Source: Desulfobacterales bacterium (GTDB taxonomy: Bacteria; Desulfobacterota; Desulfobacteria; Desulfobacterales; JAHEIW01). From it: a DNA stretch of 64,000 bases. The notes beneath the pieces were generated by a model. It had not been told where the DNA came from, searched no databases, and saw only the letters and a program-made list of their open reading frames with translations. The stretch spans positions 1 through 64,000 of the forward strand of contig JASJAN010000020.1 in assembly GCA_030066985.1 (NCBI GenBank). The letters are read 5' to 3'. The position numbers and the translations under genes were made by a program. Positions 3,545-14,558 of this stretch are shown here, piece by piece. The number at the start of each line of letters is the position of its first letter. The stretch's first letter is position 1.

Positions 3545-3589
3545 TTGACAAAAGGATGTAAAGAGGTTATATGAATATATGTTCATATA
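3545..3589 (+). promoter_or_regulatory. Promoter with ArsR/SmtB operator ahead of the metal-sensor gene
   Basis: A -35 TTGACA (3545-3550) is followed after 17 bases by TATATG (3568-3573). Lying over the -10 is a perfect 8-bp inverted repeat, TATATGAA (3568-3575) and TTCATATA (3582-3589), separated by 6 bases. An imperfect palindrome of this kind over the -10 is the standard ArsR/SmtB operator layout, which predicts autorepression relieved by metal. Confidence 0.75.
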
Positions 3590-3603
3590 TTCAAGGAGTG
3601 GAT

Positions 3604-3978
3604 ATGAGTACTGTAAAAGCGCAATGCTTGGATGGGGATGACTGTCAAATCAGGGTGATCCACCTTGATAGGGTTGAACAGGCGCGCAGAGACACCGTAT
3701 CAGAAAAAGAAATTGAGCGGCTGTCCTCGATTTACAAGATCCTGGGAGACCCCAGTCGTCTGAAGATCGTCATGGCGCTTAAAAACGTGGAAATGTGCGT
3801 TTGTGACCTGGCGGCCTTTCTGGGTCTGACCGAGTCAGCAGTGTCCCATCAACTTCGGCGTTTTCGCGATCTGGCCCTGGTCAAAAGCCGCCGTGATGGT
3901 CAGGTGATCTATTATTCGCTGGATGATGAGCATGTGGCGGAGTTGTTGAATGTGGGGCTTGAGCATGTCTCCGAGTAA
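3604..3978 (+). CDS. CadC/SmtB-type metal-sensing ArsR-family repressor
   Basis: 124-residue winged-helix repressor that should leave its operator on binding a thiophilic or borderline metal such as Cd, Zn or Pb. Two classical metal sites are visible. The alpha3N-type site has C65 and C67 in EMCVCDLAAF, with C8 and C14 in the N-terminal arm. The alpha5-type site is D108, H110, H121 and E124 in the final helix, with exact DxH-(10)-HxxE spacing. Carrying both sites resembles CadC. The start is the ATG at 3604, preceded by SD AAGGAG; an upstream in-frame ATG at 3571 lies inside the operator and has no SD. The efflux permease follows on the same strand, so this is very likely its regulator. Confidence 0.85.
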   Translation: MSTVKAQCLDGDDCQIRVIHLDRVEQARRDTVSEKEIERLSSIYKILGDPSRLKIVMALKNVEMCVCDLAAFLGLTESAVSHQLRRFRDLALVKSRRDGQVIYYSLDDEHVAELLNVGLEHVSE

Positions 3979-4100: not shown

Positions 4101-4156
4101 CCTTATCTATGCATCGAAAAAACATTCATTAAAAAAAACAAAACTAAGGAAGAAAA

Positions 4157-5341
4157 TTGAATTTCATATTTGAAATATTGCTGGCGACGTGGCATCTACT
4201 CGTTGACGCTTCGGTTTACATCTTGTTCGGATTGCTGGTGGCTGGATTGCTGCGGGTATTTTTAAATCCCAGCTCGATCACCCGGCATCTGGGGCAGGGT
4301 CGGTTTAAATCGGTCCTGAAATCAGCCTTTTTTGGTATTCCAATCCCATTGTGATCATGCGGTGTGCTGCCCGCAGCCGTGTCGCTGCGCAAACAGGGTG
4401 CCAATAATGGCGCCACAACTGCATTTTTAATTTCAACCCCGGAGTCCGGGGTGGATTCCATTTCCATCACCTATGCTTTGCTGGATCCCATCATGACCGT
4501 CGCGCGCCCGGTGGTGGCTTTTATCACCGCGGCGGTGGCCGGCATTACCGAAAACCTTTTTGGGCCCAAAAATGAAACCACCCGCATCACACCGGATCTG
4601 ACCTGTCCGGTGGATGGCTGCTGCGACGGGGAGAATTGCTCACCAGAAGAGCACCGCCTGCATCACACCTTCGGGGAAAAACTTGCTGCCGGCATGCGTT
4701 TTGCCGTCGATGATCTCTGGAATGATCTGGCCGGCTGGTTTATGATCGGAATGATATTGGCCGGATTGATTACGGTGCTGATCCCGCCAGACATGTTCGG
4801 TAAATATCTGGGCGCCGGCCTTCCGGCCATGCTGATCATGCTGGCGGTGGGCATTCCGTTGTATATTTGCGCAACAGCCTCCACCCCGATTGCCGCAGCC
4901 CTGATTCTAAAAGGCGTCAGCCCGGGCGCCGCTCTGGTATTTCTTTTAGCCGGGCCGGCCACCAACATCGCCTCCTTAACGGTCTTAACCGGTGTGCTGG
5001 GCAAGCGGGCCACTGCCATTTACCTGACATCCATTGCAGTATGCGCGGTTGTGTTTGGTTTAATCGTTGATCAGGTATATGTTTCTTTAGGGATATCGGC
5101 CCAGGCCGTAGTGGGCCAGGCGTCGGAAATTGTGCCCCGTTGGGCGGGGGTCATCGGTGCGCTGATGATACTGGGAATGTCGGTTAAACCCATCTGGAAG
5201 GCGCTGCGGGCACGCTTCAGTCCGGCCGCAAAGCAGGAAGAGACCCTATCTGAGACGAAGAAAACGTTGGCTGAGCCGCTGCCGGTGGTGTCTGATTGCT
5301 GTCCGAAATGCGATAGTTCTTCCGATACACGCCGCAACTGA
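4157..5341 (+). CDS. SO_0444-like heavy-metal efflux permease, predicted selenoprotein (Sec66)
   Basis: 394-residue polytopic permease of the COG0701/DUF318 type, related to the SO_0444 Cu/Zn efflux family, expected to export metal across the inner membrane. The frame starts at TTG 4157 (SD AAGGA) and is interrupted once by TGA at 4352-4354. It then continues uninterrupted to 5341. The TGA falls exactly where the family has the first Cys of its PLCSCGV motif: GIPIPL-U-SCGVLPAA. A short stem-loop 17 bases downstream fits a bacterial SECIS. The middle has a Cys/His-rich loop (CPVDGCCDGENC) and the C-terminus ends in CCPKC, both likely metal-binding. The metal-sensing repressor lies just upstream. 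The alternative, a nonsense-broken pseudogene, is unlikely because the long downstream frame is intact and the stop sits at a catalytic Cys. Confidence 0.82.
4372..4389 (+). promoter_or_regulatory. Candidate bacterial SECIS stem-loop for the permease
   Basis: CGCAGC (4372-4377) pairs perfectly with GCTGCG (4384-4389) around loop CGTGTC. The loop has a G in its first two positions and lies 24-29 bases after the UGA at 4352-4354. This matches the known bacterial SECIS rule of a small apical stem-loop roughly 16-37 bases downstream. Confidence 0.6.
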
Positions 5342-13910: not shown

Positions 13911-13990
13911 CCTGAAAAAGCCAAACCCTTCGCAAGATGGGGACGGAAAGCCACGGGTCCGTCGGAGGCGGATAGCCGGGTTGCCAGATT
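13911..13990 (+). ncRNA. Cyclic di-GMP-I (GEMM) riboswitch aptamer
   Basis: The conserved GEMM-I blocks are present in order: GCCAAACCC, a GNRA-like capped helix (TTCGCAAGA), GGGACGGAAAGCCACGGGTCC, and GATAGCCGGGTTGCC. These form the three-way junction that binds c-di-GMP. By hand alignment to the Vc2 aptamer the ligand-contacting G20 seems kept, which favours c-di-GMP over cGAMP; this is a low-confidence call. The downstream gene encodes a PilZ protein. Confidence 0.88.
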
Positions 13991-14010
13991 TTCGGTGGTC
14001 CGGCTATTTT
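13973..14010 (+). terminator. Intrinsic terminator forming the riboswitch expression platform
   Basis: TAGCCGG (13973-13979) can pair with CCGGCTA (14000-14006), followed by TTTTTG. The left arm is also part of the aptamer closing region, so aptamer folding and terminator folding exclude each other. That predicts read-through when c-di-GMP is bound, an ON switch (inference). Confidence 0.7.
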
Positions 14011-14030
14011 TGTTGGGAGGTAACCAGTCA

Positions 14031-14558
14031 ATGAAAAAAGATAAAATCTATTCTCTGCGAATGAACAGCAAAGTCCGCGAGGCGCTTCAACGGGCATCGA
14101 ACAAAGAGCAGCGCTCTGTGGCCTCATTAATGGACAAAATCATCATGGATTATTTGACCCGGGAAGGATTTCTCAGTGACGCGGATTACGGGGTCGAGCG
14201 ACGTCAGTTTAATCGCAAAAAAATTACGGTACCCACAGAGACAACCTTCACGGAAGGCCAAACCCAAAAAGCAGTGCCCGGGGTTGTGCTGGATCTGTCT
14301 CTGGGCGGTGCTTTAATCACCTACCCGAAGAGTTCCGATGTTCGGTTTTCATCGGTTGGTAAATTGCCTGAATTCGGCCTTGAGCTGCAGGTACCCGGCC
14401 GGACGGATTTGTTGCACTTCGATTGCAATGCCAAGCACATGCGCGATACCGGGGAAGAGATTCATGTGGGCGCCAGCTTCAGCAATCCAGAAGACAAAGA
14501 ATTACAGAAATTAAATGAATATCTTTCTGACAAGCAATCGGAAAAAAAAGATAGCTAG
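14031..14558 (+). CDS. Ribbon-helix-helix/PilZ protein under riboswitch control
   Basis: 175-residue protein. Residues ~3-45 look like a ribbon-helix-helix DNA-binding segment (KIYSLRMNSKVREALQRASN then RSVASLMDKIIMDYL). Residues ~60-165 are a PilZ domain with RRQFNRKK and VVLDLSLGGALI. It could be a DNA-binding PilZ regulator whose expression and activity both depend on c-di-GMP. The start at 14031 follows SD GGGAGG; the longer frame from 13995 would begin inside the terminator stem. No operon partner follows. Confidence 0.82.
   Translation: MKKDKIYSLRMNSKVREALQRASNKEQRSVASLMDKIIMDYLTREGFLSDADYGVERRQFNRKKITVPTETTFTEGQTQKAVPGVVLDLSLGGALITYPKSSDVRFSSVGKLPEFGLELQVPGRTDLLHFDCNAKHMRDTGEEIHVGASFSNPEDKELQKLNEYLSDKQSEKKDS

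Follow-up and report, generated by a model that had tools for sequence, protein, structure and literature searches.

The gene at positions 4157–5341 of the window (the 64,000-nucleotide stretch of a Desulfobacterales contig, JASJAN010000020.1, that was analysed) almost certainly encodes a selenoprotein form of an SO_0444-family metal exporter, as judged from comparison with its homologues, and the reading of its in-frame UGA as selenocysteine (Sec) is strongly supported by the same comparisons. The frame opens with a TTG codon and closes with the TGA at 5339–5341; its only internal stop is the TGA at 4352–4354, which replaces the first cysteine of the motif PL-C-S-C-G (GIPIPL-U-SCGVLP). With the UGA read as Cys, the product matches NF033936 (SO_0444 family Cu/Zn efflux transporter) with 421.5 bits and covers residues 1–349 of the 351 in the model. 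Since this score lies above the curated cut-off of 300 bits and the motif residues U/C66, C68 and C238 are present, the protein is a member of the family; its score against PF03773, again with UGA as Cys, is 152 bits. The preliminary description, in which a single UGA interrupts an otherwise intact permease at the first Cys of its signature motif, is thus borne out. The window holds 46 in-frame stops with at least 40 open codons before and at least 80 after them, a plain count in which many are ordinary neighbouring genes; the codon at 4352–4354 is the only TGA followed by more than 300 open codons. The features of the locus are collected in Table 1.

Table 1. Features of the permease gene and of its upstream neighbour (window positions).
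Feature	Position	Strand	Details and basis
ArsR/SmtB-type metalloregulator	3571..3978	+	Upstream of permease; true start possibly the ATG at 3604; NF033788, 93.8 bits
Shine-Dalgarno-like AAGGA before TTG start	4146..4150	+	Sequence
SO_0444-family Cu/Zn efflux permease (predicted)	4157..5341	+	394 aa including Sec66; profile matches, AlphaFold model
UGA codon, putative Sec66 in PL-U-SCG	4352..4354	+	Codon tally among homologues
bSECIS hairpin CGCAGC-[CGTGTC]-GCTGCG	4372..4389	+	6-bp stem, 6-nt loop CGUGUC, G at loop position 2
Cys/His-rich inter-half linker CPVDGCCDGENCSPEEHRLHH	4604..4666	+	Second Sec site of other homologues falls here
Second-half motif PLYICA	4856..4873	+	Invariant Cys238, internal-repeat counterpart of Sec66
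C-terminal Cys-rich tail (CCPKC)	5297..5311	+	Sequence

The SO_0444 family is already listed as a selenoprotein family, and the window gene is a further well-supported member. The listing is found in a table of a 2026 review, where the NF033936 family appears with the motif UxC and the protein WP_014809615.1, taken from GenBank annotation (PMC13188914); this was the only earlier description of an SO_0444-family permease as a selenoprotein that a literature search found, two older surveys making no mention of it. The listed form belongs to the same family by score and carries its Sec in a U-x-C motif, as does the window permease. Beyond the published listing, the present analysis adds the repeated exchange of Sec and Cys, several hairpin geometries at the first Sec site (site 1, codon 66), a second Sec site, and proteins that carry both.

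A total of 198 distinct homologues were gathered from two family searches (116 relatives; 395 genomes of the phylum) and a named scan of genome contigs. Codon 66 is TGC in 85 of them, TGT in 77 and TGA in 36, with no other codon found, and the 36 proteins with TGA are distinct and spread over many families. Internal TAA or TAG codons are absent among the full-length matches listed above the family cut-off; the one match with a TAA (G484) scores below it. In a class-wide search of 389 genomes, the interrupting codon is likewise solely TGA among the matches listed. The three nearest genomes of the same genus, which are other species in separate assemblies, have the identical TGA, and it is therefore not a sequencing error. 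Carriers of the UGA include Desulfobacterales genomes from metagenomes and the Delta 1 symbiont associated with Olavius. A permease paralogue (G000:C18) was considered as a further UGA-Sec gene and rejected, its TGA being a plain stop.

The canonical stop could also mean that a nonsense mutation has inactivated the permease, leaving a 325-residue downstream open reading frame to decay, and a shorter frame could indeed start at the GTG at 4364. The preliminary description had named non-Cys residues in all close homologues, or a shifted downstream frame, as signs of such a broken gene, and had proposed both an alignment of this position and a look for UGA in other anaerobes. All 198 homologues have Cys or UGA here, the UGA is found in other anaerobes, and the frame continues beyond it, the protein remaining collinear with its homologues through to the C-terminus. 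Measured against the same-genus genes, dN/dS is 0.07–0.11 on the 3′ side of the UGA and 0.04 on the 5′ side; by these ratios the downstream frame is under strong purifying selection. As 36 distinct proteins from many families share the TGA, and TAA or TAG never stands in its place, the probability left to a decaying gene is negligible.

The UGA is followed by the hairpin that the preliminary description had noted at SECIS distance, a 6-bp stem with a CGTGTC loop, which is present 23 nt from the UGA to the loop, with an energy of −9.1 kcal/mol. It satisfies every criterion of the published bSECIS model, namely a loop of 3–9 nt with a G in the first two positions, a stem of 4–16 bp, a distance of 16–37 nt from the UGA and an energy of −7.5 kcal/mol or lower (PMC13188914). 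A hairpin with G in loop position 1 or 2 occurs in all 36 UGA genes. In the first search, 33 of the 36 had a hairpin of −6 kcal/mol or lower, compared with 22% of the Cys homologues (p = 7e-13, a value that is optimistic because related sequences are not independent). By loop position, the hairpins of the 36 genes group into CGUG(U/A)C at +26 (the window gene and 17 others), GGC at +20, xGUN at +23 and GGUC at +30, while in L166 and L177 an AGGU loop at +23 is closed by a weaker stem of 4 bp; judged from these predicted folds, site-1 hairpins occur in at least three geometries.

The hairpin is stronger than expected from synonymous recoding (p ≤ 0.05) in 28 of 36 Sec genes as against 23 of 162 Cys genes, and the window hairpin by itself gives p = 0.027. 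The fold energy of the whole 45 nt is uninformative (mean −15.9 kcal/mol for Sec and −14.7 for Cys genes), so that only the position-constrained hairpin separates the two groups. The hairpin stem of the 18 window-class genes is so nearly constant that its pair covariation lacks significance (99 of 500 shuffles); freezing of third positions was therefore used as evidence instead. Among 90 invariant columns with four- or six-fold degeneracy in these 18 genes, four have zero entropy at the third position, and three of the four, at +8, +9 and +11, fall inside the hairpin; elsewhere the third positions vary freely (mean entropy 1.2 bits at invariant residues). Such freezing speaks against a decaying gene, which the codon tally, dN/dS and hairpin conservation together exclude in practice. 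A change of the genetic code is rejected on the same three grounds.

A wider form of that last explanation is that the UGA is read as Trp or Cys, through reassignment or near-cognate read-through. In its favour, the alternative residue is always Cys, so that Cys read-through would also keep the function. This reading is nevertheless very improbable: the SECIS hairpin is conserved and enriched among the UGA homologues, the genome has a complete selABCD set, and UGA still terminates ordinary genes here, the permease gene included. The source genome encodes SelA, SelB and SelD alongside a tRNA-Sec of 75.2 bits. A strong tRNA-Sec is found in all UGA-permease genomes of the phylum sample; its presence discriminates poorly, since about 90% of that sample has one. 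The Sec form of SelD is well known, and the selD gene of the source genome (L048, G000:C48:37903-38817, minus strand) has an in-frame UGA of its own in SRTCG-U-AAK followed by a hairpin, which indicates a Sec-containing SelD and provides a positive control within the same genome. For the permease, SelB bound to the hairpin 23 nt 3′ of the UGA would deliver Sec-tRNA(Sec), giving the protein of 394 residues.

In a tree from which the Sec column was withheld, at least seven changes between Sec and Cys are needed on well-supported branches, and the window gene sits in a supported all-Sec clade of 10; as reconstructed from this tree, Sec and Cys have been interchanged repeatedly at site 1. Four Cys genes with TGT or TGC (L165, L044, L167 and L138) adjoin Sec genes on the tree and still have a SECIS-like hairpin in the corresponding position; they look like recent replacements of Sec by Cys. 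In genome G050, a Cys copy (L044) occurs together with a partial UGA copy (L094); the two may be paralogues or come from strains mixed in the assembly.

Insertion of Sec is in general dependent on the supply of selenium. The UGA might serve as a regulatory truncation, the full-length permease being made only when selenium is available and a 65-residue product, or the downstream GTG start, being used otherwise; the exchange of Sec and Cys on the tree suggests a cost and benefit that depend on supply. The position is always the Cys of the metal motif, however, which points to chemistry. Such regulation is unlikely to be the explanation, and it would be compatible with the Sec reading rather than opposed to it.

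In other members of the family, an in-frame UGA is found at a second site, about 83–112 residues beyond site 1, where a Cys-rich linker joins the two halves. It occurs in seven homologues of the first set and in 30 loci from the class search, the 37 loci being L027, L053, L054, L067, L068, L072, L087, L245, L254, L255 and L263–L289, in other genomes. The motifs are PGCG-U-P, PT-U-xxNxCSCG, GG-U-GC and related forms, and nearly all of these UGAs are followed by a hairpin of their own, in which an AGUU loop at +26 is common. The linker-site stem covaries in 16 sequences: five of six pairs change on both sides, and none of 500 shuffles reaches the observed score, under a control that is lenient because the rows are related; the scores of slid versions are likewise far below the observed one. 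Both Sec sites occur together in three proteins, L072, L264 and L265. The published table entry does not say whether it means PL-U-SCG or GG-U-GC (PMC13188914), and as U-S-C and U-G-C both fit the published UxC, one of these positions, if not both, may be undocumented. We consider it probable that the SO_0444 family uses Sec at two places, PL-U-SCG and the linker, each with its own SECIS and both together in three proteins, and that at least one of these positions is undocumented. The linker site lends support to the view that this family recruits Sec as a ligand for metal. With Sec used at both places, these would be metal exporters in which it has been recruited repeatedly, to a likely entry site as well as a likely transport site.

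The AlphaFold model of the permease is a confident one (mean pLDDT 86.9) and has helices broken at residues 60–66 and 236–238. The two halves form an internal repeat (score 130, against 32.8 ± 5.8 for shuffled sequences) in which Sec66 aligns with Cys238, and 81 homologues without exception have U/C66, Cys68 and Cys238. The position of Sec66 opposite the invariant Cys238, at paired helix breaks in the model, suggests a soft-metal ligand. The closest solved fold is that of ArsB (10tp; Z 12.3, 271 aligned residues, rmsd 5.0), where a Z under about 13 may reflect a common helical arrangement, followed by the CNT, NaS1, INDY and TRAP transporters. Foldseek gave no match with E below 0.001 and a sequence search of the PDB chains no relative; an elevator-type exporter, like the ArsB/INDY-type ion transporters, is therefore a suggestion drawn from the model.

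We infer the geometry of the metal site, its substrate and the advantage of Sec as follows. Sec66 would lie where a discontinuous helix of the first half is interrupted, with its repeat counterpart Cys238 in the second half and Cys68 nearby. The three residues may form a site for Cu(I), Cd(II), Zn(II) or a similar soft metal at the centre of an elevator-like transporter, which the Cys/His-rich linker and tail might feed. A selenol is more acidic and more polarizable than a thiol, and could allow tighter binding or faster exchange of thiophilic metals. The suggestion of the preliminary description that Sec at this position could alter metal affinity or redox control is plausible.

Export of Cu and Zn by the window permease is inferred from its homology to SO_0444 of Shewanella oneidensis, a member of the same transporter family that the cell requires to grow under Zn or Cu stress and whose mutants are sensitive to both metals (PMC3219624). 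In Nitratiruptor, Cd and Cu induce a homologue (PMC10092412), and according to the 2026 review more work is needed on what Sec does in metal detoxification (PMC13188914). The related SaoE efflux transporter (NF040736) matches the window protein over its full length at 196.5 bits, below the cut-off of 325, so that membership in that family is rejected. The name SaoE refers to a separate system rich in selenoproteins. The window permease also shares a Pfam family, PF03773, with the ArsP_1 permeases, among them the ArsP organoarsenical exporter; the NF033936 signature marks its subfamily, which has links to Cu, Zn and Cd.

Where the function of a selenoprotein is known, it is in most cases that of a redox enzyme. 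Here, Sec occupies an invariant and predicted intramembrane position of a metal exporter and is repeatedly swapped with Cys, which provides a natural set of matched Sec and Cys transporters and, with it, a test of why a cell pays selenium for moving metals. What was a single line in a catalogue becomes a testable system through the sample of homologues, the types of hairpin, the second Sec site and the traces of SECIS left in Cys copies. In standard annotation, such genes may be split or taken for pseudogenes.

SO_0444 forms an operon with the ZntR-like SO_0443 and is predicted to be regulated with it (PMC3219624), whereas the window permease has an ArsR-type repressor upstream, whose score lies above the 55-bit cut-off of NF033788, a generic metalloregulator model. 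The repressor has the motifs EMCVCDL and D-x-H-(10)-H-x-x-E together with N-terminal Cys residues, mostly kept in the neighbours of homologues. These resemble the α3N Cys site and the α5 D-x-H...H-x-x-E site of CadC/SmtB, and the two Cd/Zn-type metal sites claimed for the repressor hold at the level of these motifs. Metal sensing by the repressor would lead to expression of arsR and the permease gene. An arsR gene lies directly upstream of 19 of 36 Sec homologues and 98 of 162 Cys homologues; none was found upstream of the other 17 Sec homologues, some of which are on short contigs, and the coupling is thus not universal. The ArsR upstream of the permease of the Olavius Delta 1 symbiont (L162) has EMYVCD in place of EMCVCD, with the loss of one Cys of the putative metal site. 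Elsewhere in the window, a c-di-GMP-I-GGC riboswitch (RF03167, 71.8 bits) is located at 13911–13989 on the plus strand, just 5′ of the open reading frame 13995–14558.
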